Below are positions 260 through 53,100 of a DNA stretch of 64,000 nt, in pieces. The DNA comes from Ctena decussata (taxonomy: Eukaryota > Mollusca > Bivalvia > Lucinida > Lucinidae). Made by a program: the position numbers and the translations under genes. The stretch spans positions 27,735,899 to 27,799,898 of the forward strand of contig OZ022512.1 in NCBI GenBank assembly GCA_963989385.1, read 5' to 3'. The notes under the pieces were generated by a model. The model was not told the DNA's origin. It saw only the letters and a program-made list of their open reading frames with translations, and did not search any database. Positions within the stretch are counted from its first letter, which is position 1, and every line of letters starts with the position of its first letter.

Positions 260-1190
260 GTCTAAACCATCGTTTTTTGCAATACATTCACGTTTGTCAA
301 TGTAAAAGAGTTACATTTTGTATAAATAAGTTTTGTAAATCTGAAAAGTTCTTTTCATTTTTCCGACAGGTAAAACATCAGCATTCAGATGGTAACTATG
401 CATTTAATACCGGACAGATTATATAGCCCTGATATTTATGGTTTCTTGTGCGATACACCGATCTAAAAGCATCAGCATCCAGACAGTTTTCCGTAAGTTT
501 GGACAGGAGGTTGAATTTATATTATTTTTTTCCATCTCTTATCTTCGGTATTATTTATTTGATCGTTTCCATTCCACGGTAGGTGATCTTAAAGCTGCCT
601 TCTGAACACCTGTCTAGGTAATACACAATCATAGATGTTTGTTTATTGAGGCAATGCGTGCGATTCGGTGATTACACAAACAAATTCCATGTCAGCACAC
701 TTTGTTGTCAGTTTTAGCATGACACTGCTTTATAATCAGCTAATCGTTCGCTTTGTATCTTTTGTAATAACGGTCTGAACATCTTCCATGATTTTCTTCC
801 TTTTCCTTATGTTTTGGAAGCTGTACTGGTGATAGATCTACACAGTAATTTTGGCCCGAAATTTTAGTCGGAAATCTTTTAATTTCATGTCAAATTCCAT
901 TATGCTATAAGTTATAAAGCATATTTTCTGACAAAGAAAGAGCTAAATATAGTTGGAACGAAATAGTTGTCTTAATCTAAACCACTGAATGTTAATTTTG
1001 AATATATGGAAAACCGGCATTTATTTGGTCAATAGCCTATCCTATAGATAACGTCATAGGCGTTGCAAGGGACAAAACTCGAACAGACTCTGAATTATAG
1101 GAAAGGTGTATATCTCCAGATAAGAGGGCACCAAACCCAATAATAAGCCGCAAGTCTCTGCTTTGGCAAAAAGCTTTGCAAAGAGTTATC
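260..1190. other. Intron after x22: no exon recognised
   Basis: AT-rich sequence. The next calf-2 exon was searched for on minus (RN-x-GPS, WP motifs) and not found. A motif AAAACATCAGCATTCAGATGG/AAGCATCAGCATCCAGACAG occurs twice (370, 468). Confidence 0.5.
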
Positions 1191-1196
1191 ACTTAC

Positions 1197-1293
1197 AAAA
1201 TATCTATGTGTTAAGACTGGTCCAACTTCTTCAGTTGTTCTGTATCTTTTAATGTCTGAATCAGAGTAACTGATCTGCTCGGGTTCTTTCTTC
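1197..1293 (-). CDS. Integrin alpha exon x22: start of calf-2, TTEEVGPVLTHRYF
   Basis: 97 bp, phase 2 in, 0 out, acceptor TAATTTCAG, donor GTAAGT. Encodes KKEPEQISYSDSDIKRYRTT then EEVGPVLTHRYF. EEVGPV-x-H-x-Y is the calf-2 entry motif (alphaV EEDVGPVVQHIYEL). The next exon should begin in phase 0 with an RNxGPS-like motif and was not found between 1 and 1196. Confidence 0.92.
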
Positions 1294-19200: not shown

Positions 19201-22200
19201 AGCAAACAGGAAGTCACAAAAGTTATTTCCCATTGTAAAGCTGCTGGAAAAATATGGAGGTATACCCATATACCATAAGAAGAAACAAACAGGCACTTCA
19301 AATTGTTATTTTCATTTCTTTTCATATATACACAGAGCAAATGCCTTTCAGCTAGTTTTGATGAGCTTGGAAGAGATTTTTGTCACCATCTCACTTTATT
19401 TTATCAAATTTATGGGAAAATTCCTAACACTGGACCATTGGAAGTGGTATAATTTCGAAAATATGTCACTTGCTGATGACATAGGTTGTTAGGGGTGCCT
19501 CTAACTCACCTGGATATTCATTAAGGTCCATATCCAGTGCTCCTGACAATGACCAACCAAATGTCTCTATTCCCTCTAGAACGTCTTCTGCTTTAATTAT
19601 CTTTAAAATGACACAGAGAAAATATGCATATGAATTGCAGAGTTTAAACATAATATGTAAAGATATGAGGGTTGATCCAAAAGTTCGTAAACACCTTAAA
19701 TAACATTGAAATCTAAAAAGGCCCATAGATGAAACATTGCATGCTCAATATTCAAAGGTAGATTCAAAACCCAATATTCGTTGAATTTGCCTGATATTAT
19801 GAGAAAATATTGAGTCATATACAGAGAAGCATTGGTTATGTTTTATTTGTAATGAAAACATTACTATTAATTATTCTAGTAAGGAAACATATTGTTGGTT
19901 GGTTGGGTTGATTAGTCTCATTCAGTTTGGGTCACGTGTACCTTTTGACAAAAAGTATCTTTTGAGAAGTCATGCGTTTGCTTCATTGCATTTTGAGGTA
20001 TCACATGACTTTTACGATTGGTCCTTTTTAGTTTGTTCCTGGTGTGGCGCGAAAAATCGCGCACGGCTCAGTCATCGACAATTTTCAGTCGAAGTTACAT
20101 CGGCAACGTCAGCCGAGTGAGTTATCGACATATTCAGTCGTTCGTTATTTTCTTACAAAAATAAACCCAACCAACCCGCCCGTTATATTTTGTTTGTTGA
20201 AGTAGTGGGTTTTTAGATTCAAATTTAAGTATAAAACTTATGTTTATGGTTTTGTACAATAATCCAATGGATGTAATTGGTGGGCTTTCTAGTCCTGCAT
20301 TTTTACATATTTCTTATGATGATATCCATAAATTATCCGCCAATTATAAATAGTAATTCTTATTGCTGTTGTTTGCTTCTTTACTCTGTTATACGCACGT
20401 AAATAATTTGAAAGAAATAACTTATTGCATTTGGATTTTATGGACTGTGTCCACAAATTTCTGGATCATCCCTCGTACATGAAAAAAAACAAAAAAACAC
20501 AACAGCTTCTGGCATAACAAAGGCATGTTACAAGACTGAAAGATGGCAATAAGCCACAACTGTGCAAAAACGCATCACAGTGGCTTTCTTTCACAGTGAT
20601 CCTATCAAAACTTTCAAAATACAAGACTATTTCTCCATTCTCTAGAAACAAAAATTAATATACACTGAAGGACTTAAAAAACGCAAAAAATGAAAATTAA
20701 ATTTTTTGGAATGACGAATATTTTTAGTCTTCTTCAATCGGTAAAATCGATTGGTAACAGCACTCTGCTTCTATCTACATTTAATAACGGCGTTTTTTAG
20801 ACACTGGCCACCACGAGTTCCCTAATCGCTGTTTTACCATGTTTAGCACGTGGCACTCCCACGAATTTATGAAGCAAAATATTTTACCATTCCACGTGTA
20901 ACTTGTAGTCTCACATGTACAAAAGACAAGTGGGCTTTATTTCTATTACTTTATTAATCATGCCACGTTTGTCCGAACATGAACGATCTGGCGCCATTGG
21001 AATGCTACAAGCCGGGGTACGTGTTTCTGACGTCGCGCGACACTATAATTGCCATCCGTCAACTATTCTTCACCTCAGAGATCGTTACCAGGCTACTGGG
21101 ACAGTTAGAGATCGACGACGGCCTGGTCCAAGAAGAATAACAACCCGACGTCAAGACGCCAACTTACGTCGATTGCATCGAAGGTTTCCATTCCCACCGG
21201 CTACCGTCAGTGCCAGACGAACAATTGGACTCCGAGGGCAAGTTGTTTCATATTTGTTATAAACGATCTAATTGCAATTATTATAAATCATGGCCCCATT
21301 TCTAGACAAAATTTTTAAATTGTTTCATTGCAGACGCCCAATCCATGCTCGTACAGTTCGGCGGAGAATTCGAGAAGTTGGGCTCCATTGCCACAGACCT
21401 AAAAAGGGTTGCATTTTGACCAACAGACATAAGGCGGTGAGGTTAAACTGGGCTCGGGCTCACTTACGATGGAACCGCAGGCAGTGGGGATCAGTTTTAT
21501 TTACTGATGAATCCAAGTTTAATGTGCAAAACTGTGACGGCCGTACAAGAGTGTACCGTGAACGCGGTCAGCGGGTTTTGGAGAAATGTGTCCAAAAACG
21601 TAACCGTGGTGGTGGTGGCAGTGTTCATGTCTGGGCTGGTATAACCCAATTTAATAAAACTGATCTTGTTATTCTAAATGGAAATGTAAATGCTAGGCGT
21701 TACATTAACAACATTCTTCGTCCTGTGGCATTACCTTTTTTACAACAAAATTATAGGAGAGGTAACTTTATATACCAACATGACAATGCCCCAGCTCATA
21801 GTGCCCGCCTCACTGTCAATTTCCTGGCAACAAATAGGATTCCAGTGCTTGACTGGCCGTCTTTGTCTCCAGACATGTCTCCGACTGAGCATGTCTGGGA
21901 TGAGCTGGGCAAACGTATTAGCGCTCGACGTCAGAGGCCTAGGAACGTTAATGAACTAACCAACGCATTGATCAATGAATGGAATAACATTCCTCAGCAA
22001 GTGATAGCAAACCTTGTACTTTCGATGAGGCGGAGATGTACTGCATGCATAGCGGCAAATGGCAGTTACACTCGCTATTAGTTGCTACTTTTGAATGTAT
22101 GGGTATTGCTGTTTGATAGACTGTTACTCTCATATTATTCAATATTTTGGGATGAAGTTAAGAACAAGGTTTGCTTACATGTTGATGTTCTTGTTTTGCA

Positions 22201-25200
22201 TAAAATATTGATGAATAATAAATTAAATTATTTTATGAATTTCACTTTTTGCGTTTTCAAAGTCCTTCAGTGTATAACCATCTTGTTATGCAGTGACTTA
22301 ACATTGTAAGATAAATTTTGATATACTGTTAATCCTAATAAATGCCCCAGCCCTGCTCTAATAAAAGCCCCCTTGCTTCTTTTCCTAAAATAATGTTTTA
22401 ACTTTTAGGAATTCCTGTTTGCTTCTTTGGATGAGGTAGCTGTTTGAAATGGGGTCTACTCTTGAAGGAAAGAATTTGCTCCTAGATGAGCAAATTCTTT
22501 CCTTTAAGAGTTGACCCTCACCCCTACTGAGAAGGGAGGCAAAAATAGTAGAGCCACATACACATTCAACTTAATACTGTTTATTAGATGTATTCTGACA
22601 GTGGCTGATTTACTACACTTTATGCTCTAAATAATTTCCCTTTCGTAAAATGTAACACCCTGGGGTATTTTATAGGATTGATATGGTCATCATATATTAC
22701 ACATCATAAAGTTACAGCATGGAACAGTATGTCACAATTCATGACAACTCTACTAAATGTAGGACAACTTTCTGAATCTGAAAAAAATGTCTTAAGACTG
22801 GTCATATCATAAAAATTCTTAAACTTGTGCTCATCTAAGGCTAATTTAGTATCGTATCACAGGATCTAAGTAGAAATGTCTCATGAAGGAAAATGCAAAA
22901 TAGATAATGTCATCCCAATAGTTCAACTTATATGGAAATGATGGAAAAAAATGTAAGCTTGATTCTAGGCTGAATCTAAATGGAGACAGAGACAAACCTG
23001 TTGTACATCAGTTATTATTCCTCTCATAGACCCATGATAGATGTAGACAGCCCCGCGTCCATCTTCACCGCCATACGGAGCACCCACAGCCAGATCTAAA
23101 ACAGAAAGAAGCTTAATATGGGGACACAACAATTTTTGTCTTTTTCTATCTAAAATATTCACAAAGTAGCAATGTTCACTATATTTTTAAATTCAGCATT
23201 ATTTCATAAACTCTTACTATAGGCTGAATGGTCCTACTGTTGTAACAAAACTGAGAACATTAGCAAAACTTGTAGATCATGGCAAGCAAATTAAGACAAG
23301 ATTTGCTGTTACGCTGAATTAACTGTGGTCAGAATTGGGCATCAAATACTGTAGCAATGTTATAGAAGCATGATAAAGCTGAGAAAGTACACAAATCTTA
23401 CCATTATAGCCATCAAGATCTATATCACCCAGAGCACACAAAGCTAGACCAAATCGGGACCTTGAGTGATGCCCATCTAGGATATCTTTATTCTTCTTGG
23501 AAAACCGTCTCTACAGAAAAAGAAAATATAATGAAGAACATGAAGTTAAACATTTACGAATAGCTAACCTTTATTTAGTGTTACTGCCTTTATCCTAGCA
23601 GTAGTTTTAATGCCTTTAAAGAACAAGAATTCCGCGGAATGCTATGTCGCACCTGCATTGCATTTCCACAGTAGCAGAGATGATGTTGAGAAGAATTGAG
23701 AATAAAAAGAAAACAAAATAGTTTGGCATTATTCTAACATAAATTTTGTCAAAATCCACCCAATGGTTCTTAAGGTACTGCCATTTTCATGTTTGTGCTA
23801 TTTTTAGTAACGGTGGATGGAAGCCATCTTGGATGGCCAATTTGCCAAAAACCGAAAAAGCTATATGCAAGGATCATTCTGACACAAAATTGGTCCAAAT
23901 CCATTCTCAGGCTCCTGAAATATAGTCATTTTCATGTTTTTGCTACTTTTAGTAACGACAGTGGCGGCAATCTTGGATGATACATTCCCATAAATGTGAA
24001 AAAAAAAGAGAAAACTCCCTTCAAGATCATTCTGATCAAATCTGAGCAAAATCCACTCAGTGTTTAACGATTTATCGGCACTCAAGCAAATTTGAGACTC
24101 GTTAACTAAAAGTAGGTCACTGTGACCTAATTCCGCTACAGATTTTTTTCATTTCTGTAAGTTTCATATAGAAGGTCCTATTGATGTTCCATGCAAAGTT
24201 TCAGCCAAATATACCTAGTGGTTCTAGAGAAAATGTTAATTATGTTGTTTTGCTATTTTAAGTAACAAGCGGCCATCTTGAATTCTGGACCAGGCTGAAT
24301 TTGTGTAATCTGAAGCTCTGTAGTCTGATCATGCTCCATATGAAATTTGAGAACCATGGCTGCAGTAGTTTTGGAGAAATTGACTGAACAAATTTTTAAC
24401 GCCAGGGTTGACGTAAATGTGAACGGACTGACGGACGGACGGACGGACGGACTGAATGACAGAAAACAAAAACCGGACGCCTATATCGCACCTTGCTAAA
24501 GCAGGTGTGACAATGACAGACTTTTAGTCACCAGCACAGTGGGAAAGTGTCTTTTGAGAGATGTCTATCTTTTTTATCTATAAACTGCCAAGAATCAACA
24601 CAAAACTACCGTAATCGCCCCATTTACCGCACGGTGCGCTTAACTTGAATTCCAAGGGAATGGAGAACCCACTTCGAGTTTTCCGAAGTTCGAGATAGGC
24701 AAATTGTGACGTCACCAAAATTTTTGTTCTATACATGTACAATATCTTAACTTTCGTAGAGTCAGTATTTCTACAAAACGTGTGCAGCACGAACGTAGTA
24801 GAAAACGGGATTGTTACTAATAGCCCGCATCAAAGAGCGCCGCTCAATACTGTTCAATCAATTAAATTTCAAAGGTGCCTAATTGACCGAACTTTCCAAT
24901 CGAATGCACCTGACCTGTGACATATACAGGTTCAAGGTCAATTAGCTTACACACAAAAACAGCTGATCAACAAAACAATGTCTGCATTGTTTCACGCAAT
25001 CATTGGATAATTATTGGCTAATTTGGGATAATTGATTGAACTGCGATCAATAAAAGACAATTGTTCGGTAAATCGTTCTTTTTCATTGTTATTGTTCGAT
25101 GTTTGTACCAATTTGCTTAAAGACAAAAATATGCAGGTTTTTCATTACGCAAAACGTCTACACGAAATGGCCGTCATTTTCTTTCTGTCGTTTCGGCGAT

Positions 25201-28200
25201 CTTTTTCTGAATACACATTTTGACTTCGACACAAACAGTGGTAAAACACATGGAAAGTGTCGGAGGGGAATCAAAAATCACTTCGATACAGCAGTGTTTT
25301 CGTTATAAGCGAGTTCGACACAACGTAGGTCGAAATGCAATATTATATAGGGGGGAATGTTCGGGAATGGGAGATCACTTCGACACTAGCAGGGTTTTCG
25401 AGATAAGCAAGTTTGACACAACGAAGTTGGCCTGTATTTCATTCTCTTCATCCTTCTTCAATATTCCAAAGAAAGGAAAGTATTTCAACACATTTACGAT
25501 GACCTAATATGTGATTGTTTAAACACGTCAGGTGAGTTTGTCAGTGCTCTGGCTATTCATTCACAGCAAATGGTCTGCTTTAAATTCATGGGCTTCTATT
25601 AATAACACACACATTCTAATTCTGGAAGATGCAGTCCTTTTGATCTTCCCTATAGTTCTGTCTGTCCTATATTACGTCAAAGGGTGCAGAAATATTGGCA
25701 ACGTGTCATGAGAAAGGTACCGCATTACATGTGCAAACAGCAAAGCCTTAGACCAGTCTGCGCATCTTAAAACAATTATTTTGCAAACTATCGGCGAATC
25801 CTGGAGATTTGTTAGACTTGTCAATTCGCAAATGCACTGTATGATGCGGGTGTTTGCTGATCGGATGTGTCCTGAGGATCTTTTGAGGCCTAAGGGCTAG
25901 CTATGCCAATGATAAACCTATCCTATGGCTACCGCGAACTTTGTTCAAATGCACAGACCATGTGTATGCGCAGGCTGGTCGCTTCGTTCAGTTTGTGCAT
26001 GTATTCATACTGATTTTGTCAGGAAACAAGAGTTTGTCGTTATGACAATTTATTTCTTTTGCAACCCGGGTTTCTCATCTGTCGTTCATGTACCTTTCCC
26101 AAACACACTTTGGCGCACGTGCATATTATCGCTATATATGACAAGAATTGCTCTTGAAAAATGGCGCCTTTTTGCATATACGAAAGGCAAAGACTCAGTT
26201 CAGCCTGCGCGCCGCCGCAACCTCATAACTTCGTAAGCTCGATCCTTCTCGGATCAACATGTACATTCCCATAGTTGATGCAGATAGAGAAGACGCTAGT
26301 CAGACGGCGCAGATGTGTAAGATGATCGGAGTCCGCTGTTCGCACACGTACACATCATAACACTTCAGCCAACTTCGTAAATATCTGCGAGGATGCCCGA
26401 TTGACATTTAGACCGATAGAGTTGCTCACTTCGCACATTGCGTCGGGAAAACAAAACTGAAAACACTGTCGCTGCAGTGTGCGCTTTTGCATTTTTTTCC
26501 GGAAATGGCCTTGGTGTGCAGTTATAGGGGCATGTGCGGTAAATGGGGCGATTACGGTACTCCATTTACTTAAAATTGACGTACCTTCAATCATTTCCAA
26601 ATTTGGAAGAGTCCAATCCAGATATGTCTTTAAAACTGTTTGCAAACAGAATAGACCCTGATAAGAATAACATTAGTCTGATCTTGGTCTATCCTTGCTT
26701 GCTTAGGCACTTCTGGGTCCGAAGTTATAAAACTTGAGAATAATCTAAAACTCAAAATAAAGCACACTGATTGGCTGCTTCCGAGCACAAACTCAAAATA
26801 AAGCACGCTGATTGGTTGCTTCTGAGAACATGCTTGGAAGCAGCCAATCAGCGTGCTTTATTTTGAGTTTGAGAATGTACTCAAGTTTTATAACCTCCGA
26901 TCCTGATCAAATACTTTGAACACACACCCAGATGATAAATAGAGAATCTTTCACAAGTGGTCATTTCATATGAAAATTATGAAACCAGCCTTCGGCGAGT
27001 TTCATAAATTTCATATGTAATGATCACGAGTGTAAGATACTTTCATTCAATGCATACCTTACTGTTCTGATAGTAGATGTACACCCTGCCTGTCTCGTAC
27101 ATGTTATCAGTGCCGTAGTCCGAGAAAAGTGGTGCTCCAACAATAACATCATCAAGACCGTTGTTATCCAAATCTGAGACCTCAACAGCATAGCCAAAAT
27201 AAGAACCAAACTGTAAATAATAATGATAAATTTTTACGCCAAACTGAAGAAGAGTACGCCAAAATGACGTTACGTTGATTGCAATGTCGCCCTCAGGTGA
27301 CGCCATAATCAACAACGTCGGGACCTGGATAGTGGACTGAAAACAATGACAAGGAATGTAAACAGAGGATCTTACACGAGTGGTCATTTCATATGAAATT
27401 TATGAAACGAGCCTATGGCGAGTTTCATAAATTTCATATTAAATGACCACGATTTAAGATTGTTTATCATATGACCCTTTAAAATGGGATTTTAACGCCT
27501 TCAAACTGAACATTATTTCAATAAGAAAACGCATTGTCGACATGGACTTTGTCAATGACGTTACGTGTACGCGCCAAAGTGTTTTGAGTTATTACACGTG
27601 TGGTCATACGATTTTTATGACACAATGTTATCCACTGAATAACAGTGACGTCATATGATAAAGTTAATTTCTGCTTGCATTTTCACCTGAAGAAGGCCGG
27701 TACAGGCCGAAACGTCAGGAAATAAGGAGTGTTAACAACTAACAAACATGTAAATAATAGCAACAACAAAAAATTACCAATCTGTCTCATGTAACAGCAG
27801 AATGATCACTATCTTATATGCATTAAATACAGCTCTTACATGAGCAGTCTGATTGGGTTGATCATGATCTAACTATCTGTCATTGTGTCAGCATTATCTC
27901 CATATATTCAGATACAATCAACATTTTCAACAACAATCAAAGTGTACAAATTTTCGAAATGAAAATTGCTGAATTTGCAAACAGCGACCAGATGAGGCGG
28001 CCCATAATGAGCCACCTCATCTGTATCTACACTGTTTGCTGTATAATCTTTGAATTCTCAATATAATATAGCTTTGATAAACATCTTTTGAAATATTTCA
28101 GACCCAGTCCAATCCCTAAATTTTGTCATTTGCATTTTTGGCACTTTTTAAAAGAGTTAAGATCATACAGCTTACCTGTTCACCTTTTATTGTGTCAATT

Positions 28201-31200
28201 AACGTCAGATTCTGTGTGTATATAACCACCTGAAAATTTAGTGAAACTTTTCAGATGTACAGTGTAGCAAAATACAAGCTTGTAAAAATCTAGAAATAAA
28301 ATACCAAATCTACTTGTTCAAAATTTGTCCGTATAGTCAGATTTACTTGCTGAGAAAAACTGTATGACAATTATATGAATAAGAGCTGAGTAGAAAGGAT
28401 CCCCGGTAGCTCAGAAGGTTAAGCGTTGGCTCACTGATCTAGGGGTCCTGGGTTTGAGCCCTGCTTGAGGTGGAAATCTTTCTAACCATTAACAGGGTTC
28501 CATTGCAAAACAGCCTTTCATTATCACCCTCATATCATACTGTTAAAAAGGATGTAGAATCGCAAGTCATATATCCATGCTACTATAAGTGTATGTCTTC
28601 CAGAAATACTTTAAAACTTTATCCAAGCTGAATTTGCAGCAATCACCCATCTAATTTTCATGTCGCTGAGTATTCACTCTTCACATATGCTGTAAGATTC
28701 CTTTTTTCCAGGACATGTCTCGTATCCTGCAGAATCTCATTATGATACTATTTTAGATTATATTATAAAATACTGTTTAAACTATACTGTTTTAGATATA
28801 ACATTATCATCTTATGGCTCCCAATGAGACTTCTAAAACAACAAAGGAATATTATAAAGGCAGATAAGTATGTAAGTAAAGGCTTCATTTAATGACGGTT
28901 ACAACATTTAGCACATATATATGTAGACACTGATCTTCCATGAGGCCCTCAAGTTAAGATGAGCATAATATCCTCATTTGTCTATAATCCTTTGTAGACC
29001 CATCACAATATTAAGCTATTCATTTACAATGCTGAGCCTGTAACAAAGGGACTCCACTGTAATCTGCTTTAGCACTGCATAGTTAAAGTATTATACATGC
29101 AATTTTTTCAAAGAGCCAATAAACAGCCACATTTTGAGTATGGTCTAATATCCAATGTTGTGACTTTGCTAAACATCTGCAGGTGTAGGTGTATCTACAT
29201 CAATCCTTGGCTATTTTGTACTTACTTTTCCTTGAAGTTGTCTGCTCCTTGGCGCGCCCACAACATAATCTGTAAATGAAACACAGAGTAAGCCTTAGAA
29301 TTAGAATTCTACTAGTTTTCCTTACAAAAAAAATTTACTATCCTAATTGACAAAAACCAACGGCTAAACTTGTTTCCACCTTTCAAAAGTCATGACTATC
29401 ATACTAAAAGGAGTACCGTAGGATAATCAGAAGACAATAGTTGCAAAAAAAATTTTTCTAGTTTCTTTGTAACAGGAATGTATTGTTCACATATACATAC
29501 ATATATTATGCATTTTCACTCTACTTCAGTTTAAGGCACAAAACAAAATCTGGTCATATTAACATATGCAGTCAATGTGACTATACACATTGATAATATG
29601 TTACCACTTTCATTAGAATTTCATTATTTTTGCTCTTATTCAAACACAACAACAGCATAGTTCACCTAAACTTCAAAGTAATAAAGACACTTTAACCAAA
29701 ACATACAAATGAAACCGATGTTGTGGGTGACAAAATTTCGATACTTAAGTCTTTGTACTTGTGAGCTCTCTATACTAACCCTCAAGAAAAGAAGATTTAA
29801 TAGAAATAAATACCTTCCATAGTGTCTCCATCAAAATGTCCGATTGCACTGGCATATCCTGAAATTATACATATCAAATGAGCCGCGACATGAGAAAACC
29901 AACAAAGTGGTTGAGTGCCCAGCACAGACTCAGATCATCCAGGGCATCTACCCAGTCTGATCAGACTCTTTGCTAAGTGCTTAGGGTAGCTAAGGGTCTA
30001 AGCTACCTCCATGTGGACAGCAAAGACTCTGATCAGACTGGGCGGATGCCCAGGCTAATATGAGTCTGCGCTGGGCGCACAACCACTTTGTTGGTTTTGT
30101 CGTGTCGCGGCTCAAATTATTGTTGAAATTAACAAGAGGCCGAAGGGAGCTTGAAATGTTCTACTGGTTCAAGAAAATTTGACCAGGAATTATGTGTCAC
30201 ACTATGAGATCACTGTTGCATGCAAAGTATCAAGCATAAATTCAAAATTTAACATAATTTAAATAACCTTCTTCTTACAATTAATTACATTTTGCATTTT
30301 TGGCTCACCATGAGATGATCCTCCATGCAAAGCATCATGCTTTAGCTTGTAATTGTCTCCAAAATCAGAGTAGAGTGATAAAAGATATCCTCATCCAATC
30401 ACTCAGCCTACCCTACTCCCTTGAATCCCTGATTCATTAACTTACCCATATATGAGTAATCTCTGTCTTTCCTGCCCTCCGGAGTGGCCTCATACCGACC
30501 AGGACCATCTTCAAAGTTGAAGTTAAACAGCTGACCTGAAAAATTACAATAGAGCCTCATCACACAAAAACATTTTAGATATATTGCTGCCACATCATGG
30601 CTCGGTTTGAAAAAACACAAAAGGAATATAAGGTAAATGAACATATTTGAGCCGCGACACGAGAAAACAGACAAAGTGGCATGTGCAACAGCACAGACTC
30701 AAATCAGCCTGGGCATCAGCCCAATTTGTCTTCACTGTCAGCACAGAGGTAGTTGAGGCCTTTAGCTACCCTTAAAGTGCACAGCACAAACACTGATCAG
30801 ACTGGGCAGATGCCCAGGCTGATCTGAGTCTGCAATGGGCACATAACCACTTTGTTGGTTTTGTTGTGTCATGGCTCATTTAGATGTTCATCAGTTTTTT
30901 ATTTCTTTGCACCCATGGCCAAAAGTAATTCAACAAAAATAATTTCTTATTAAGACTTTATAAGAGTATTTTTATGTTTACAAGAAACTTAATTTTGTAA
31001 GTTTAACAACTAATATGGTAGCTAAATGAAAAATGCAGTTAATATTTTTTACAGAACTTACTTCTATCCTCTCAGAGTCAAGATACAGCTTGTCAAAATT
31101 AGCATGAATTAAAGAACACAATGATTTTACATGGATGTTAGTGGCAAAGTTGCAAAAACAAAAAGTGACTAAAGTTTTAAATGTAACAATTAAAATGATG

Positions 31201-34200
31201 CTGTTCAAGTATAGGATGAACAACTCAAATGAAATATACCTTTCTATCAGTACCAAAATAATGCAAAACTAGAAAATGTGTTTATGAAACACTATGCCCC
31301 CAACCATATGCTTGCCTCTAAAGAAGGTTCATCCAATAATGCTTGTACCTTTGTACCATAGGCTTCAGTGCACTAAGTCCAAAAAGGGGCTTAACTCAGT
31401 CAAAAATTTACGAATTGTTTTCAAAAGTTAATCAGGTCATCAACACCTTGGGCAATATCTTCCTGCAAAAAATCATGATCCTAGCATCAGGGGTTCTCCA
31501 GATATTTTGTTCACAAGGTTCCATAGGCAAATAATGCACTAAGTTGAAAAAGGGGCATACCTCGATCAAAAATTCATGAATATTTTTCAACAGTTAATCA
31601 GGTCATCTACACTACAGGCAGTATCTTCCTGCCAAAAATCATGATCCTAGCGTCGGGGGTTCTCCAGATATTTTGTTCACAAGTTTCCATAGGCTTACAA
31701 TGCAGTAAGTCGAAAAGGGGGCATAACTCGGTCAAAAATTCATGAACTTTTCTCAAAAGTTAATCAGGTCATCTACACCTTGGGCAATGTCATCCTGCAA
31801 AAGATCATGATCCTAGCATCAGGGATTCTCGAGATATTTTGTTCACAAGGTTCCATAGGCTTACAATGCTTTAAGTCAAAAAAGGAGCATAACTCAGTAA
31901 AAAATTCACGATTTTTTTTTTTTCAAAAGTTAATCAGGTCATCTATGCCATTGTCAATGTCTGCCTGCAAAAAATCATGATCCTAGCATCAGGGGTTCTC
32001 AAGATATATTGTTCACAAGGTTCCATGGCTTACAATGCACTAAGTCTAAAAAGGGGCATAACTCGGCCAAAAATTCACGATTTTTTTCCAAAAACTAATC
32101 AGGTCATCTACACCTTGGGCCATGTCATCCTGCAAAAGATCATGATCCTAACATCAAAGATTCTTGAGATATTTTGTTCACAAGGTTCCATAGGCTTACA
32201 ATGCACTAAGTCTAAAAAGGGGCATAACTCGGTCAAAAATTCACCATTTTTTTTCAAAAGTTAATCAGGTCATCTACACCTTGGGCAATGTCATCCTGCA
32301 AAAAATCATGATCCTAGCATCAGGGGTTCTCGAGATATTTTGTTCAAAGGTTCCATAGACTAAGTCGAAAAAGGGGCACAACTCTGAAAATACGTGACCG
32401 GCGGAAAAAAGAAAAAATACGGGTCCGCTTATTTTTCATGTACGTGCCACACATAAAATTTCAAGATCCTAGCATAAGCAGTTCTTGAGTTTCCCAGCTG
32501 CCAAAAAGCGTTACGGACGGATGGACGGATGGACAGACGGACGGACAGACGGACGGACGGACAGGCCCAAACCAATATGCCCCCTCAACTTCTCCGAAGT
32601 TGGGGGCATAAAACTAATTTCCAGTAAACATAAAAAATTTGAACTACTTTCGACCCACTAACCACAAAATTTACCAAGATATCAGTAAAATTTATCAAAA
32701 AATTTACTTTGAGATATCAGTTTGAACTAAATTTTTAACTTTGAGATATCAAGAGTTGACTGTACAGTGAAAATCATCTCCAAGAAGTGCAAAATTATAT
32801 GAGAAAACTTCTAACTTTGTGAGATTTTGCATGCAGAAATCAAATGTTTTCATTTATCATGTTATAAGATTGATGAATTAATCAAATGTTCCAGTGAGAT
32901 ATTTTTTATGAAGTATCTCCTGACAGTGATGACTGAAACTCTTGTACTGTACATTTTATCTGAATCAATAATAAATAAACGTCTTTTGAGTTCCAATTTT
33001 GATTTGTCATTTCAAATGGAATCTTCTAGTGATAATTAATTAGTTTGTAGAGTGCATGGTCATCAAGTTCAAAACATGATGTGTTGCCTTCTTTAAAAAT
33101 ATGTCAAAATGACCTTTTATATATTTAGAGATCTTGATCTTACCTTTGACAAGATACAGATGCGCCAGAAATGGTCTTATGTGGTTCTACTCAGGTAAAC
33201 ACATTTTCCCATCATTTTTCTCTAAAGGGAAACAACTATGTGATTTCCTGTTTGCTTTCCTGAAAGTTGTACCCCTTTCCAAAAAGGGGCTTCTCTTATA
33301 AAGGAAGGAGGAAAAGCGAATTCTTTACTTTACCAGAAGCCCCTATAGAAATGGAGACAAAGTCCTCAGTGCAAAATTCATCTCCCCATTCCCATCAGAG
33401 CCTTAGATAAGAGGGAGTATTTGGTGATAATTAGGGATAATTTTTGTTAATTCTGCATAAAAACATATGTTGTGACCCCTCATCTGAACCGTCTCGACGA
33501 GATGAGGGGTCACAACATATGGTTTCAATGAGAAATAAGAAAAATTATCCCAAATTATCATCAATGGAGACAAAGTCCTCAAGGCAAAATTTATCTCTCC
33601 ATTCCCATCAGCTATAGATAAGAGGGAGTATTTGGTGATAATTAGGGATAATTTTTGTTAATTCTGCATATAAACATATGTTGTGACCCCTCATCTGAAC
33701 CGTCTCGACGAGACGGTTCAGATGAGGGATCACAACATATAGTTCAAATGAGAAATAAGAAAAATTATCCTAAATTATCATCAAATACTCCCTCTTATCC
33801 ACAGCTCTGCCCATTTACATAAATATACAAAACTCACCTTGCCAGTACCAACTACCAACAGCTCCCACCAAGAGTTGTCTACCTTCCTACAGAAAAAGGT
33901 TGAATAGATCACATATATTGAACAAACATTTTATTGATGCATACAACATAACAAGACTTTAAATAAGATGTTCAATCAAAATTGTTATATCATCAGTAAA
34001 TTTTTCTGCCTAAAAACAGCATATTAATTCAGTGTATTTTATAAAGGACACCCAGACCAGATTGCACCTGTTTTCCATTATTTTAAGAAAAACATCCACC
34101 TGTTAGACAAATTAACTTATTCAAATTAAAAAATAAAAGCCCCAATAACAGAAATGGATGTTGTTTCTGAATATTTACCAGCACATACTAGTAAAACCAC

Positions 34201-43200: not shown

Positions 43201-46200
43201 ATATTGGTATCTGCGGATATCATAATAACATTTGCACCCAACATAATAATACTTGGCCAGGATATAATGATGGGCTGACACTATAACACTAAAACAGACA
43301 CATGGAGGCAGTAAAGGCGTTCCATATTGTAGCAAAGGAAGCATTTTACTACCTTGCTTGGCAACAAATTAATTCTCCTTATCTATACTAGTTAAGAGAC
43401 ATATTCAAGTAGTGTCTCCCACAGGTTTTGTTTCATTGCTAAGAAGCTTTTAAAGAGATTTATTCTCTGCTACACTGAATGCACCCTGTGTTTCCCACTA
43501 ATGTACTAACCTTTCGTGTCATTAGGTATATGAGACAGGGTATATTTTTTTATGAAATACCAGTTTCACTGAACTCTTGCATAATAGGATTATAATGACA
43601 GAAAAAACAGGAATGTTTGTCTTTACAGATAAAAAAGGATCTGATTTTGTCCATGGCTTGCCCCGCTCCCACCCCAAATCAAGCTCTCATCTATCAATGA
43701 GAATTAGCTGTCACTCACTTCTGCTAGTGCAACACTGAATCCTGCTTGACAATAACCTTGTCTGTGATAGCCCCAATATCCTGGAAGGGAAGTCTCTTTT
43801 GTAACAACAAATTTTACATGACAACATAAAACAATATGCAAGTATCATCCTGCAGTTGTCACTTGACAGTCTTTTCCAAGAAAGTCAACTGTCTGAAGAG
43901 CTAATCTGCAAAAGGGCCATTAAGAGGTTTGGCGTACATTGCATTACATGACACCATACCAGGATATGGTGGATATTATTATGTTCAGAATAAATGGTAT
44001 TGGACAAAGTTATAAACAAAATCAAAATTTGCAGCATATTGCATGTGCAAATGTTTGAAATGTTTTGTTATCATGCTTATGGATTCTGGTTTATTCGTAT
44101 GAAAGGCTGAAAACTTCTAGTTTTCCAGAATACTTTGTTTTTAAACATCAGTCAATTATTTGTTTCTTCATAAAGAGTTCAACAGTGTTAAGGAACTCAT
44201 TTTTTTCTGAATTGTGTTAGAACTAAATTCAACTGCAACATCATACTTGCTGAAAAATATAATCTGTATCAGAAATGGCCACTACAAGTATTACAATCAA
44301 ACAGACCAACATATTTCTGAAGAAAATATTGCAGTATTCTTTCAAAGAATTCCGCATTTAAAACTTATCTTTATGTCACACATGATAAGTTGCTGATATA
44401 TCAAGACTGTGTTTGATTGAAGTCCTTTAGTTTCTTTGTAGTTCCAAAAGCAAAGTCCTAAGCCTTGACATTAAATGATACATACAATGCCATTTATGTA
44501 TTGTAATCTTTCTCAAAATTATTCCATTTATAAAATGCTCACAATGAGAAATATTTTGAACATTAAAATATCCATATTTCATATCTTCCATTGACACAAA
44601 ATTTCTAGTTCTTCTAAATGACATACACTACTAATTGTCATTTCATTGTAATTGGAAATCCTTTTTGGTTTCATCAGGAATTCATTTGTTTGGTTTAAGA
44701 GTCAATTTGATACAGACTATACCACAACAGCAAATTAATGAAATGACAACAATCAGGAATAAATAAACAACAAAACAAGAAATTATAGCTTATAAACTAT
44801 AAAAACTTGGACAACAAAAAACAAAACATTTACAAACAATATCAAAAGAACAAACTGACTATTAGCCCATTTCCATTTCCAGTTCCTCAGTTTAACAGAA
44901 TATAGAATTCGTAGTAAAAGTTATTGGATGTCTTTTCAAAATCAATGTTTAAAGTTTGAATGAATTTAAGATACCTATTCCTTTCCCTGACCACAGTAAA
45001 TTTCCAGCATTAGAGACAAATATGTGTATCAACACTGCTGCAATTATGCCAATACATGTATACCCTTTCATTATTCCACATGGGTGGTACAACAAACACA
45101 AATGCAGATTTGCTTAGCTGTAGCATAACTGCAGCGTATTCTAATCATACAACAAGTTGCTGAAAATCTAATGGAACTTGGGTGATTATGTCCTGAACAC
45201 TAGAAAAGACAGAGGTTTGAATTCTTTCTGATAACATACTGAAATGGGTGTCAGTGTGAATAGGAAAATAAACAACTTTAATAAACTAGTAAGAAAACAG
45301 AAGAGAAAATGTGGAGCTACACAATGCACAAACAAGAACAGACAACACTGTGACCATCTGTATCTTTATATAATCATACGATAAATGCATATAATTCATG
45401 TATGACCAATACAATATATAACATATGGACTGAATATACACATCAGTGAACAGTATATATATATGCATATGCTGCAATTCTCCCTGTAAACATTCACTTA
45501 AATTCCACTTCTCTATGAACACTTTAATGGGTTCGATAAAAGGAATACTGAACTATCAGACATCTACTGTGCTCAATGTCAGAACTTGAATTCATCAGCT
45601 ACCAAAAAGAAACAAACTTCAAGTGGAATTCAAACTACTGTATCTCACAGTGCATTTAGCACATTGTGCATGCTTTGCTAAATTACTGTTCCAGTTTGCA
45701 AAATGTTACAATTTACAATTATTTACTCCACAGGTGATTGGTTAAACCATCAAATTTTGCTTAATTTGTTTTAACCTTTCAAACAAATTGAGCAAAATAT
45801 TACAAACTGTCGGTTAGTATACTGATAACTTTGAAATTCTTTGCCCTTTCTTGAAAGCTGAGAGGACACAGCAACAGCTAAAAGAACCTCAGAAAACAAC
45901 CATAATGATGGCTTATTACAACATGAGCACAAGATACAGGGAACATAGCTATGAAATCCTAATTGCCACCTGTGACATATACTGTTAACTAACTTCTTTT
46001 TGTGAGAAAATACTGCTGAAAATTAAACTAGTAAGAAAACAGAATGGCCACCTAAAGGTAAATGGTAGTATTATAGGAGCAACCCTGCTATTTTAATTTT
46101 TGCCTTCTTTATAATAGATGTGACATGATATAATAGAGAAACATGATACTGTGTCTTGGGCAACAGAACCCTTCCAAAATAGGTAATTCTTAATGGGAAG

Positions 46201-49200
46201 GATTTGCTCCTAAAAAAAAATTCTCTAAGAGCTGAACCCTACTGAGGCAAAATGAAAATGGCAAAGCTGCTTTTCCTGAAAGTGCGTCAATTCACTTTAA
46301 AACATTGTTGGCTCAATTGAAAACCATAAGACTGTTCCAGACTGGGTTTCTACTTTTGTTTAATCATTCTGCCTGACAACACAAAGTATATACGTTGTTT
46401 ATTTATAACTGCAAACCACTCAAGAATCAACAAAAGGCATAATTTTCTAAACATAAAAAGAAAGTTTGTTTACAATAGAATTAAAGCTAGGGAACTTCTT
46501 GCAGCTGCTGCTAGAAATTTTTATTGCCTCTCCCTGTAAAGATTTTATCAATTAAATCCTGAATACATAAAAAGGACACAAGCACATAATAATTACAATT
46601 AAGAGGATTGTGGAACAAAATATGCACCAAGTACTTATATGATTTTTTCCAAAAACAAAAATTAAGTGAGACAATCACTGTTTATCATGGTATGTCACCG
46701 ATGCTATTTAGGTAATGTAGAAGAAGGCAACTGGACTTGTCCTAAAAGTGGAGCCTTAGTGCTTATTTAAAGGTAAATAATACTCATTATCAGATATTAT
46801 ACCTAAATGACAGCTGAAATAGATCATCATCATTCACACACACACTCTTGCTTTGGACGTCAAACAGACAACATCGCTTCTACCGAGATGGAAAACTACA
46901 AGATTCCAGCACTCGCAGTCCGATTCTTGAAGGGAGCCCGCCTCAGTGGCTTCCCTGTGTTTGATCTGCATCACGGATCAAACACTGTCCAGCTAACTTT
47001 GACATGGGCGATCAACCCAGAGGTTAGTCAAGTTAGCGAGAGGGCCGAAAGCAGGAGAGGGGGAGATCGTTGCAAGTCTGCCCCCTCTAAGCCTGCACCC
47101 TCAGCTGGCAAGCGCTCTTGCCAGCCTGGACAGAAGAAGGATAGGCCGGTCAAGCCTACTCCTTCGAGGGCAAAGGAGCAGTCTGCTCCTAAGCCTAAGC
47201 CTGCTGCCAAGAAGACTACACAGAAAGCAGCACAGAAGCCGAAACCAGCAGCTCCAGCGCCATCAACGCCAGCCAAGCCAGCTCCTGAGAAGACGGCCTC
47301 CACACCACCACCGCCACCGAAGACGCCACCAAAGGACGTGGAGATGACTTCACCACCAGCTCCGAAGCGAAGGTCACAGCCACAGCCGGCCGCAGACAAC
47401 GCCCAACTGCCAGAGACTCACCGACACATGTTCCACAACGAGTCCCTTTCCGAGGAGAAGCCGCTGTCCAAGTACAGTGTGGAAGCGGCAACATTCATGG
47501 AACACACTGACGTTACCATCATGAAGCTCCGAAGGAAGGGAAAACCAAAGGACTGTATCGGTGTGACAAGCAGGAGCTGGGAGAAAGTCAAAGTGACGAA
47601 GGGACCGGGCAGCAAAATCCATCATGCTGCCCACTGGGATTTCTGGCACGAAAAGTACAGGTCAGCACCAAAGCCGGAATGCCAGCTCACAGCCATCAGG
47701 GAAGCAGTAGAGATCGTCAGGGACAAGAAGCTGACGTACACCAGCCCGATGGATCCAGACAAGCCCTAGTCACAAGAAACTTCTTTGCTGCCACATCGCA
47801 GCAATCAACGCGGCCCTGGGAGAAAGCACCATCGACAGCCAGGGCCGCTTCCGACCTACTGACCTACTTCTTTGCCAACACCGACACGCGGCCCTAAAGG
47901 AAAGCAACGACACTACAGCGACATCACAGCCTCACAGACAGAACAAGAACACGCCAAGACAGAAAACATCACCAGCACCACATCAACGACAGACGCAAGA
48001 CCTGGACGGACTCCGGATGCCCCAGGGTGGATATGATGCTCTAGTGGCTGTTGGCCCTGGGGACCAACATCCGATACGACAAACCTGAAGAACAACAACG
48101 AAATAGATCAGGCTTAAACTGGCTGTCATCAAATTTAGAATGTTGCTCCCTGAATGAAGTAAATAGGTTGCAATGACAACAATCCCTTCACAAAACATAT
48201 AACTCCATAGATCCCCCAGTTAAACAAACTTGATAAATCTTTCCAAAATGTAATGCCTAAATTAGTCATTGACTTCATGATAGTGTATCATTGAATCGAA
48301 AACTGTCATTGGAAGGATGCTGGCTATTTCACTAGTAATATAAAATTGAATTTAAAAGCCATGAGTAATGTGATACAAAGTGCTAGTAAATATCAAACCT
48401 CTGCATGGTACCTTTTTGTTGCAGTGCAATGCTTCTTAGTTAGTGCAAACATGCCGTACATGTGGCAGTTTAGAGGCATTTAAGTCTCTGTTCTAGCAAT
48501 GTGCTCTCAAGAGTTGTACAAGCTCTAATTCTAGCCACATGCACAAGTAAATGACTGTCTATGAGACAGTATAAATTAACAGGGCTTTTTTAAACTCACA
48601 GACCTAGGTGTATATGGTAAATGAATTAAAAAAAATTCCAGCTCTTTAATGCTTATCATGGATAATTTTTACTATCAATCTATTACATTAGGACAAGAAT
48701 CCCACGTCTGACACCAATATTTTGTAACATTTTATATTGTTATTAATAATCTGTATTTGAAATGTATTTTTACGCTCAATGTATCTTTTTTTCTGTTCAC
48801 AGAGAGTAAGTCTCAACAAAGAAGATACACATTTTTATAATACCAATATAGTTTAAGTCCTGATGTAAAAACATTTATTGTGACATGTACCTGAAAATGC
48901 AACTGTAATTTTGATATTATCTTAACTGAGCCATGCTACAAGAACAAGTACCTTATAAAATATGCAAAAAAGATGACCTAGATCAGCTTCCATATATCTG
49001 CTCAGTTTGTTCAGTCTTCGTTTTTCACCACACAGGTTCTTAAAGAATCATACATGGTACTTTCCCTCTGTTATACTATGTCATGGGTCCATAGAAAGAC
49101 ACCACATACCGGTAGTAAGTGAACAGAACTGCACTGACACTAAACTACAAAGGAATACAAGACAAATGAACATTTAATGCCAATTTGTCTTGTATTGCTA

Positions 49201-50103
49201 TGCAGCTTAGCTATCACATGGAGCTACCTCATTGATGCAAAAAGGGTAGACTGATCAAACTGCATGAAGCTGTAAGCTGAAATGAATCTATACCCAGTTT
49301 AGTACATGCTACTGGATATCTCCTCCAGCAACAAAGTTCAGCTATCATGATTTTAGTCTAATCTACTTGCAAATTTCAAACTAAAATTATAGTATTTAAT
49401 GACTCTAGAAGTCAAATGAAATGAGGATATTCCCATGAAGCTACGCATTTTATGAAGCTTACATTGGATAAACATAAGCAAGGAAAGGTCACTATCCCTA
49501 TTTTGAATGAAAATGAAACAAAACAGAAAATATGCAGAATCTAGCTACCCAAAAGCTTTAAGCAGGAAGTCTTAAGTTAAAGCATTTTTTATAAAGATGT
49601 AACTATTGAAGCAGAGTAAAATTACTGCAATTCACATCAGGAATTTCCTTGTTTATTCCACAAAATAGAGCTAAGCAGTTTTCTCTTTTCATATCTAAGT
49701 AATGAAAAGAAATTTTTATTTTCTTTACACTTCATACTGCAGAAAATGACAAGTCAAAAAACAAACTGAAATCTTGACACCATAATGTTTGCCAGACAAA
49801 TAATAAAGACTGCTTTTTGGATTTACATTCCAAATGGCTTTGCAATTCATGATACTTGGCCAAGACAAGGCCCCATTTGGGCCAGTCTAATTTTTGTGTC
49901 ATAAGAAGGGTTATGAGTACTACTATATATATAGAGTGATATCCCGCTTCTGACACCAAATGTTACAGACAGTCTGAAGACCTCATTATCAATGACAAAG
50001 GCTCCTAAAGTGTATTACGAATCAAAATACATTTTTGGTTTATTTCTGTATATTCAAACAGCACAGACTCTTAAACAAAAGTGGGATAAAAAGACAACCA
50101 ACT

Positions 50104-50134
<31 letters not shown>

Positions 50135-53100
50135 GTCACACACACACACACAGAGCACACAGCACATAGCACACAGTTTAGATGTTAGTGGCATGTGTTA
50201 ATGAATCAAGAAAATACATTGTATAATTATTAGCATTTTAATACTTTCTAGCTGCATTTAGCAACTGTTGCACAATAAATGTAAATATCTAAAATTCCTA
50301 TGTAAATTCAATATTATTTCAGTTTGAAAAGATTTAATTAAGTAAAGCATCTATTTAGTCAGGGCTCTGGAAATATGACAGTTCAACATTCTTGAAAAAA
50401 AAAGCACAATTTTGTCCTCTTTTTAGAGCTGATTAAAAATATACTGCCATTGCTATGTCTGTGCATATGGTTTATGCCCATAGAATGAAATATGAAAGCA
50501 TTTAAGGTGAATGGATACACCTCCATGTTGTTTGTTTAGCAGTTTTCAACAAAGAATAGTAGCTTTTGTGACTTCTCGTTTGCTTCCCTAAATGATAAAA
50601 CCTTTACAAATGAGCTGCGGCACGAGAAAACCAACAATGTGGATGTGCGCCCAGCGCAGACTCAGATCAGCCTGGGCATCCGCCCAGTCTGATCAAAGTC
50701 TTCGCTATCTGCATGAAGGTAGCTTGGACCCTTAGCTACCCTTTAAGCGCTTAGCGAAGAGTCTGATCAGACTGGGCGGATGTCCAGGCTGATCTGAGTC
50801 TGCGCTTGGTGCACAACCACGTTGTTGGTTTTCTCGTGTGTCGGCTCAAATGAGGGCTACTCATACAGGCAAGCATTTTGCTCCTTGAGGCTGGGATCAA
50901 TTTTTTTCTTTAAGAGAAGCCCACAATCAAACAGGAGACATTTGCATCTTAGTGAGAATTACCTCCCCTGGAAATGTCCACATTCACCTTATGAAAACTT
51001 AACAATAAATGAACTAACAGAAGCTGGGATTTAAGACTGTGGCAGCCACAAGCAGTATGACATGAAGGTAACAAATGAAAAAGGGCATCTTGAGCATGCT
51101 ACTTCCAGGGCCCCGAGAAAGCAACTTACTGATGTTAGCGAGGCAGAAAAACCTGCCTGACAGTAGCCTTGCTGGTGGAACTGATCTGTTATAAGCGGCA
51201 ACCCATCCACTCCTGCATGCAAACATGCCAGAGATTAAAGAAATTAATGAAAAGATGGCTAGCCTTTCAGATTATCAAGTCTCTCAATTACAATTGGAAT
51301 CAACAGCTGTCCAATCAGACTTGCACCATTCTATCCTGGCAGATTAACCCTTAGGTGCCAAAAAAGCAGACGACAAAATTTAAGTCTGAAAAATTTCAAA
51401 AAAATATTTCTTCCAAATTACATGTATATATTATATTGAGAATTCAAAGACTAATTGGCAAACAGTGTAAGTCCAGATGTGGTGGCTCATTATGAGCTGA
51501 CTCACCTGGATCTACACTGTTAGCAAATTAAACTATTTTTGTTTTTTTGTTTTTTGTGCTGCAAGTATCAAAAAGGCACCTTTATCTTTTTTTTTTTTTT
51601 TGGCTAATTTTGCCTACATCAGTCATGTTCAGTCTTATTTGATACTCGTGCTAAGTCTATATCTAAAAGGATAAAACCAAACAGATTATAGACAAATATC
51701 TAGGAAATTCCATGGAAAAACCATTGAAAATCAATAAACAGCCATTATGTCAGAGCAGAACAGAGACCTGGATAATCCAAAAGACATTAGGTAATTAAAG
51801 AAAAGTTATTGTCAATGATAATTCTAGCTTAGGTACAAGTTAGGCAGGGAGCAGAGCTACAGATATGATAATTCTGAGATAATTTCTCTCATGAAAAAGA
51901 CACATTTTGATCCCTTATTAGGCGTTTCTAATGAGGGATAAGACAATATAGATATGAAATTATCTCAAAATTATCTCTAAAAGCCCCTTTTATCTGTAGC
52001 TCTGGTAGGGAGGAACTGCAAAAGCATTAAAATGTCAGCAAAAATTGTCAAAACACAATTTAGTTTGTTATATTTTTATACAAATACATGTAATATTATC
52101 TGTTGTGAAAATAAGCTGTCTTTCTTTACAGAGTAGAGCTGGTCTTGCACACTAGATACATTAAGCTAAAATGGCCCCTTTCTCACTGTCTATCATTATA
52201 TTCTGTCAAAGACTTGTAGAAGTATAAACTGCAGTGAAGCCCAACATGGAAGGGTTTTGATGACAGTTGGTAATTTTCTATTAACACTTTAAGCACCAGT
52301 GACAAAAATAGCATAATTTGCAAACAGCGTAGATCCTGATGAGGCGGCTCATAATGAGCCGCCTCATCTAGATCTACACTGTTTGCCCTCTGGTTTTTAA
52401 ATTCTCAATATGAAATGTCTTGGACAAGGCATGTTTTGAATTTTTGCAAATGTAAATTTTGTCATCTGCTTTTTGGTGCTTAAAGAGTTAAAACATTTTG
52501 TGGCCATCATAAGAACCATTTCACTGATGCCCACTGAATATCTTTTCTATTAAGAAATGAATAACTAATTCTCAAAAATGTCATCAAAACCCCAACTTAT
52601 CTGGGGCTCCTTTGCAAACACAAAATATTTGTCCTGAAAGAGAAGACTGTGATTAAATTCATTAACTGATGATAGACTTATGTTAATCTTCATGATGTTC
52701 TAAATCTGAATGCATATATACAGAAATGCAGTTACACCTATACTTGAACAAGTGATCATAAGAACACAGTGTAGCCATATTTAAGACTTGAACAATTTTA
52801 TATTATTTAATGATGTTTTCTTCTACCCTCAAATGATTTTCAGATATATACTCCTCAAAATAAGTTTTGTATCACCTTACTTTTTTCCATAGAGCTAATG
52901 CAAAACATTCATATTACACCTGTGTATATGTCATATGAAAAGAAATGAAACACACAATTGTTTTGTATGATTAACAGTCTTATGTTTAGGTATTATAAAT
53001 GTGAAACATTGGTCTTCAGATCCATCCGTCTTGGATGATTTTACAGAGTGTAGGATTAACAGCTAAAGTGTGTATGATTAACAGCCTTATGTTTCATTTT

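Follow-up and report, generated by a model that had tools for sequence, protein, structure and literature searches.

A 64-kb stretch of DNA (the window), read on its minus strand, carries an integrin alpha gene in which two short exons, A and B, very probably form an ancient mutually exclusive pair. What the pair would swap, in a bivalve integrin alpha of the clade that binds Arg-Gly-Asp (RGD), is the docking loop between propeller blades II and III. Each exon encodes this loop together with the first strand that follows (QGYCQAGFS...). In splicing, a shared upstream exon, x1, would be joined to either A or B and then to a shared downstream exon, x3; use of both or neither would shift the frame and bring an early stop. 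The swap would replace a longer loop, in which two acidic positions (VD...DQ) are conserved, by a short aromatic and basic one (WGYHRQ), on the surface where other integrin alphas dock large protein ligands. The most likely consequence would be a change in which matrix proteins the receptor grips. The exons in question are these.

54883..55003, minus strand: shared upstream exon x1, encoding ACAPRYVYFSTRLDKREPVGTCFVARSSSTDYEEYSPCRS plus the first base of a split codon and ending in phase 1; identical to residues 147-186 of the contig translation P0121 (see below) and aligning to integrin alpha-V from residue 107
51130..51212, minus strand: cassette A, 83 nucleotides (nt), phases 1-in/0-out, encoding (R)VDGLPLITDQFHQQGYCQAGFSASLTS; the version of the blade II-III loop that is longer and carries acidic residues
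43719..43780, minus strand: cassette B, 62 nt, phases 1-in/0-out, encoding (R)YWGYHRQGYCQAGFSVALAE; the WGYHRQG version, found in arthropods as well
33838..33886, minus strand: shared downstream exon x3, encoding EGRQLLVGAVGSWYWQ plus the first base of a Gly codon and entered in phase 0; contains the Tyr aligned with alpha-V Y178

Re-reading of the sequence returned all four sets of boundaries exactly as the first-pass annotation had placed them. A and B both lie between x1 and x3, 7.35 kb apart, and x1 ends at 54883 with CTCAA/gtaagt. We then joined the exons in silico. Two products were open: x1-A-x3, which reads ...SPCRS RVDGLPLITDQFHQQGYCQAGFSASLTS EGRQLLVGAVGSWYWQ, and x1-B-x3, which reads ...SPCRS RYWGYHRQGYCQAGFSVALAE EGRQ.... 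The x1-A-B product ran into a stop at the 19th codon read in B, and direct joining of x1 to x3 gave AGA AGG TAG, an immediate stop. Among the combinations read on the sequence no others were open, so that double inclusion and double skipping would both be non-productive and a productive mRNA would need exactly one cassette, as the annotation had argued. It had also described exclusivity as enforced by reading phase. The frame logic is true, but such a lock arises automatically whenever an exon with a length of 3n+2 and phases 1-in/0-out is duplicated, and is weak proof on its own; it explains why the wrong products are non-productive and not how the spliceosome chooses.

A and B are homologous neighbouring exons with equal phases and the same shared flanks, a configuration expected of a mutually exclusive pair. 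The CQAGFS motif occurs twice in the six frames of the window, in A and in B only, and not at all in 200 base shuffles of the window. The nine-residue core QGYCQAGFS is the same in both cassettes, yet six of its nine codons differ, as is expected of an old duplication under protein-level constraint. We also scanned from x1 to x3 for AG..GT frames of 41-128 nt with length 3n+2 and a Cys-Gly core. The 31 candidates were variants of A and B and, near 47.4 and 36.0 kb, cysteine-rich frames unrelated to them; no third cassette of this kind was found between x1 and x3.

All four junctions are GT-AG. The donors of the two cassettes, which the earlier annotation had credited with good splice sites, matched MAG/GTRAGT at fewer positions (A, 6/9; B, 7/9) than those of x1 (8/9) and x3 (9/9). 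The pyrimidine fractions were likewise lower for the cassettes (0.61 and 0.56) than for x1 (0.72) and x3 (0.78). The cassette donors and pyrimidine tracts are thus weaker than those of the shared exons; weaker splice signals are common for regulated exons. Directly behind the x1 donor lies a 21-bp tandem repeat of 4.9 copies (54778-54881), whose GTAAGT-like steps could act as decoy donors.

What might prevent A and B from being spliced together? Incompatibility with U12-type sites was rejected, since the four sites look U2-type GT-AG by eye. Crowding, in which A and B would lie too close for co-splicing, was rejected on their separation. The region contains 35 inverted-repeat pairs of at least 24 nt, and among the 25 listed many involve dispersed repeats present in several copies (up to 212 nt, 91-92%); amid these no specific docking or selector pairing of the RNA can be claimed. 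One such dispersed repeat, of about 211 nt and 91-92% complementary, lies at 52281-52491, 53849-54059 and 36149-36360, in the x1-A and B-x3 introns; its inverted copies could pair across the cassettes in the pre-mRNA. Sites for QKI, whose motif we took to be ACTAAY, numbered nine in 20,996 nt, with none within 300 nt of A or B.

One of the two forms is represented by a transcript. P0121 is the translation of a public 978-nt 'lgn' contig and begins with a signal-peptide-like stretch. Its first 146 residues are not encoded in the window; they are followed by x1 (40 of 40 residues identical, residues 147-186), the split codon and residues 188-210, all of which are identical to B plus the first three codons of the intron that follows it. 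P0121 is therefore spliced, with A skipped, and the x1-B junction is present in it.

Do both loop forms recur in other animals? We assembled 160 proteins, comprising the best 120 of 1969 matches (7987 candidates scored) and 23 plus 17 new ones from further searches. The segment was recognisable in 141, and none held two. The A pattern was present in 20: 16 named molluscan records (bivalves, gastropods and a chiton), one brachiopod (Lingula), one nemertean (Lineus) and two contigs that fell among oysters in the tree described below; two C. gigas records were A-type. The B pattern, a loose regular expression, fitted 103 proteins, including molluscs and most of the retrieved arthropods. Neither fitted the other 37, of which 18 hold the segment (eight alphas of fish or platypus, the rest being short loops that have diverged, as in E. 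crispata, Biomphalaria, Tubulanus and some arthropods) and 19 lack a segment recognised by that pattern. An annelid, a nemertean, a cephalopod, a priapulid and a hemichordate likewise have short loops that are not of the A type. Among the 160 proteins no named species outside the lophotrochozoans carried the A form, nor did any retrieved arthropod record, most of which fit the B pattern.

For cassette A of the window, the nearest relative was the A-type cassette of Mya arenaria (0.81), and its own B ranked 16th of 48. The acidic positions were well kept among the 19 A-type rows, with VD in 17 (Physella has VAD, and the Pomacea loop is cut after V) and DQ in 18 (Lineus has NQ). Two sets of records stood apart. 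P0021, from Saccostrea echinata, has a B-like loop that is longer by some 11 residues (NKFQDPDGISSVMLWGYHRVGF); it may represent a third form of the cassette or an error of annotation. The Mya arenaria gene models P0033 and P0117 are without both cassettes and x3, which we read as failed exon prediction right here.

We next compared the loop types with the relationships of the rest of the protein. A tree was built with the cassette columns dropped from 48 rows, comprising 19 A, 28 not-A (called B here) and the unlabelled window; it drew on 47 of the 160 proteins, the 113 left out being fragments, most arthropods and vertebrates and the second C. gigas record. This was a quick tree without bootstrap, and long-branch warnings attached to Liolophura_2, Branchiostoma, Glandiceps, Argonauta, Priapulus, Lingula and Hetaerina. 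The A and B labels changed 14 times on it, against a mean of 15.0 for shuffled labels (174 of 500 shuffles were as low), and the starred branches forced at least 12 of these changes. Old paralogues would form two clades; the A rows do not group, so paralogy does not explain the pattern, and as a cause of the A/B split it is unsupported by this tree. Such scatter is expected where a single gene of each species contains the two exons and the database displays one isoform.

Closely related species were compared as well. We chose by hand seven pairs of opposite type (Lottia/Patella, two Elysia, Ylistrum/Argopecten, Saccostrea/Ostrea, Dreissena/Mya, Tubulanus/Lineus and Biomphalaria/Lymnaea) and eight same-type controls, and compared the cassette with flanks of 40 residues. 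Saccostrea and Ostrea are near-sisters in an open fork of the tree. Cassette identity in the opposite-type pairs was 21-48%, against 65-100% in the left flank and 48-97% in the right, and the cassette was the lowest of the three in all seven. In the same-type pairs the cassettes were 55-96% identical.

Which integrin is this? The closest solved structure to x1-x3 was alphaV (E 1.3e-15 with B, 3.8e-13 with A), followed by alpha5 and alphaIIb; alpha6 matched weakly with B (E 8.2e-4) and was absent from the matches listed with A. A Tyr or Phe at the alphaV Y178 position is the rule for the RGD clade (PMC8241838), and by alignment x3 has this Tyr, in GSWYWQG against GSFYWQG of alphaV. The closest proteins, among the best 120 of 1969 matches, include Mercenaria 'integrin alpha-8-like' and Ruditapes 'alpha-V-like'. 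In the tree the window grouped with venerid, mactrid, Mya and Dreissena sequences (seven rows, starred branch), and its source is hence most likely a heterodont clam. We conclude from these sequence matches that the gene is an integrin alpha of the RGD-binding clade (alphaV/alpha5/alpha8/PS2); RGD binding itself is a prediction. No exons upstream of x1 were found within the window. Downstream, matched exons reach to about 1.2 kb from the window start; their starts are approximate, having been located by tblastn with an alpha-V sequence as query.

30446..30535, minus strand: next shared exon, encoding QLFNFNFEDGPGRYEATPEGRKDRDYSYM plus a part codon; ends read by eye
1160..29859, minus strand: further downstream exons of the same gene, starting at about 29859, 29270, 28229, 27213, 23480, 23096, 19600 and 17931
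1160..29859, minus strand, continued: exons starting at about 16622, 13937, 10678, 9169, 7667, 5157 and 1238

The 30446..30535 exon appears, in an alignment by eye, to have RDYSYMG opposite FDDSYLG at the alphaV Asp218 position. The 10678 exon, downstream of the propeller, matched Pfam Integrin_A_Ig_1 (PF08441) with 37.9 bits against a cut-off of 26.

By alignment the cassette replaces alphaV residues 145 to about 165. The weak alpha6 alignment, in which x1-x3 covers residues 108-192, puts alpha6 N189 opposite alphaV Y178; these residues are described as equivalent (PMC8241838), and the agreement supports the numbering taken from it. The II-III loop holds alpha5 D154, the fibronectin synergy site, and alpha6 D153, R155 and R157, which laminin-511 binding requires, as judged by a charge-reversal test; it also forms the alphaIIb cap and is the site of I-domain insertion (PMC8241838). 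D154 lies 36 residues before the end (190) of the matched alpha5 stretch and would accordingly be among the cassette's first residues (the cassette spans residues 41-61 of the B query). Also within the replaced stretch is alphaV Asp150, which contacts the ligand Arg in a crystal structure (PMC8301328). AlphaFold models of an A-type protein from Mya and a B-type protein from Mercenaria had a mean predicted local distance difference test score (pLDDT) of 76.6 and 78.4, respectively, and both show a loop and then a strand at the cassette. The Mya fold matches alphaV, alphaIIb and alpha5, and near the Mercenaria B cassette pLDDT fell below 50 at 199-202 only.

Several observations weigh against a conserved, functional pair. 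P0121 continues from B into the intron and ends before x3, and so covers no B-x3 junction. Its last residue differs from the window (VSDD versus VSDS), so it may come from a close relative instead of this species. A-directed protein searches, limited by length class and shared words, returned no A-containing transcript of this species. No named species was seen to supply both isoforms of a single gene in the database, which is clustered at 90% so that isoforms collapse. The A and B records of Babylonia and of Liolophura belong to different gene copies; some division of A and B between paralogues also exists. The same-type pair Mercenaria/Dreissena shares only 55% of its cassette, against 98 and 78% of the flanks, and the short loop therefore drifts within one type as well. 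WGYHRQG is exact in 11 of the 28 non-A rows and varies in the others, with poor matches in Elysia crispata, Biomphalaria, Bradybaena, Tubulanus and Ylistrum. The Mya A loop was modelled with low confidence (pLDDT below 50 at 199-215). Finally, in a simulation with cyclic RGD, Asp150 formed its salt bridge for 0.2% of the time and Asp218 for 93% (PMC8301328). Since Asp150 hardly holds the ligand Arg, an effect on the docking of large ligands is favoured over a switch of the RGD pocket, on which the direct effect may be small.

Perhaps A is a dead or cryptic copy and B alone is used? The one spliced contig does show x1-B only, and the A donor is the weaker. We nevertheless regard this as very improbable: A is open, has GT-AG sites and a GTAAGT, keeps the core despite its changed codons, and has its closest match in the Mya A cassette. 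The A type is moreover the database representative in 20 of the 160 proteins, including the contig-derived P0017 and P0022, which stand for 35 and 91 member sequences. Nor do we give much credence to the idea that A and B types elsewhere are paralogous genes or species-fixed differences, with the gene of the window a one-off duplicate. The separate gene copies of Babylonia and Liolophura would fit it. Against it stand the ungrouped A rows of the cassette-free tree, the far greater likeness of opposite-type sister or near-sister species outside the cassette, the closer resemblance of the window A to the A of other species than to the B of its own gene, and the many records that are labelled as one of several isoforms.

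A pair that is real might instead be a dosage device: transcript level would be adjusted through the non-productive A+B and skipped forms, and the difference between the loops would come second. Each of the mis-spliced products does contain a stop, like those of poison-exon systems. This too is unlikely, because both loops recur as proteins with distinct signatures, which a pure dosage device would not need. The relatives and the one spliced contig support what the first-pass annotation had proposed, mutually exclusive propeller exons in an RGD-type bivalve alpha. As for the history of the pair, the distribution of the two forms suggests that B would be the older, found in arthropods as well, and that A would derive from a duplication of the exon early in lophotrochozoan history and have persisted alongside B. 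We lean toward an origin in the stem lineage of Lophotrochozoa, ahead of the split between molluscs, nemerteans and brachiopods, with the pair retained from then on. One RGD-type alpha would thereby alternate two docking surfaces, at the loop where vertebrates gained specificity by I-domain insertion (the alpha I integrins), a cap (alphaIIb) and point changes (alpha5).

The window holds several other elements. A 147-bp minisatellite (42343-43272; 6.3 copies, 82% matches) lies about 450 bases downstream of cassette B and is partly open as a 262-amino-acid frame on the minus strand. The A-B intron contains an antisense frame of 320 amino acids (46807-47769, plus strand) with no Pfam match, perhaps a mobile-element leftover. 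A Tc3-like transposase frame with Pfam DDE_3 and HTH_Tnp_Tc3_2 (21287-22081, plus strand) and a further frame piece at 20909-21262 lie in an intron, antisense to the integrin gene (20909-22081 in all). On the minus strand, a stretch of nearly 90 codons is present twice, at 6251-6565 and 6762-7250 (INVFIPNLVRQTRVSVFNFFSVAKPQKFDRKD...).

The annotation knew of no report of such a pair in a mollusc. Our literature search, which covered subscription journals poorly, likewise met no mollusc report of the pair and no account of a II-III loop encoded by alternative exons; both forms may already stand, uncommented, in RefSeq 'isoform X#' records. What appears new is a set of mutually exclusive exons at a new site in the integrin alpha head, in the RGD clade, that has apparently been conserved since early in lophotrochozoan evolution. 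The specificity of integrin alphas is usually seen as a matter of gene choice; here one gene seems to pick, by splicing, between two conserved docking loops. Should both forms be confirmed, many species would offer matched pairs with which the ligand contribution of the blade II-III loop could be tested. The pair is also relevant to the small number of RGD-type alpha genes that mollusc tissues have among them.

Alternative exons are known in other integrins. Drosophila alphaPS2 splice forms with and without exon 8 reportedly differ in RGD-ligand binding, the subject of a 1998 paper by Graner that PMC9218073 cites. We take exon 8 to be an optional cassette, not a swap, at another place; it would be skippable in frame, whereas skipping of the clam cassettes gives a stop. 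PS2 is grouped with alpha5/alpha8/alphaV/alphaIIb (PMC9218073), the same clade as the clam gene, and PS2-named proteins are among the best 120 of 1969 matches. Drosophila betaPS has the alternative 29-residue exons 4A and 4B (PMC9218073), which resemble the clam pair as alternative exons in an integrin subunit and differ in belonging to a beta subunit and another domain. The oyster protein Cg-alpha2 is a mollusc alpha of the RGD clade that binds both RGD and laminin, and it is the sole RGD-branch member of eight alphas in an oyster survey (PMC7390872). Splice forms of it go unmentioned in the excerpts of that paper, where the one match to 'splic' concerns fibronectin (PMC7390872).

The closest parallel, which the first-pass annotation had drawn, is alpha7 X1/X2. 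These mutually exclusive propeller exons (Itga7 exons 5 and 6) alter laminin preference (PMC12564407, PMC8860092, PMC8241838), and X1 is regulated by QKI (PMC12564407, PMC8860092). The likeness, which extends to alpha6 X1/X1X2, holds as to propeller exons of an integrin alpha that change ligand preference, mutual exclusivity being a property of alpha7. It does not hold as to site. The X1 region of alpha6 is I193-L235 (PMC8241838) and begins just after the stretch aligned with x3, which ends at alpha6 192; the clam cassette adjoins this region and does not lie in the alpha7-type position (alpha6 193-235, after the WxG strand). Moreover, alpha6 and alpha7 belong to the laminin-binding clade, and the clam gene to the RGD clade. 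The alphaIIb cap, alpha5 D154 and the I-domain site do share the II-III loop with the clam cassettes (PMC8241838), but in those integrins the loop is fixed per gene, whereas in the clam it would be switched by splicing.

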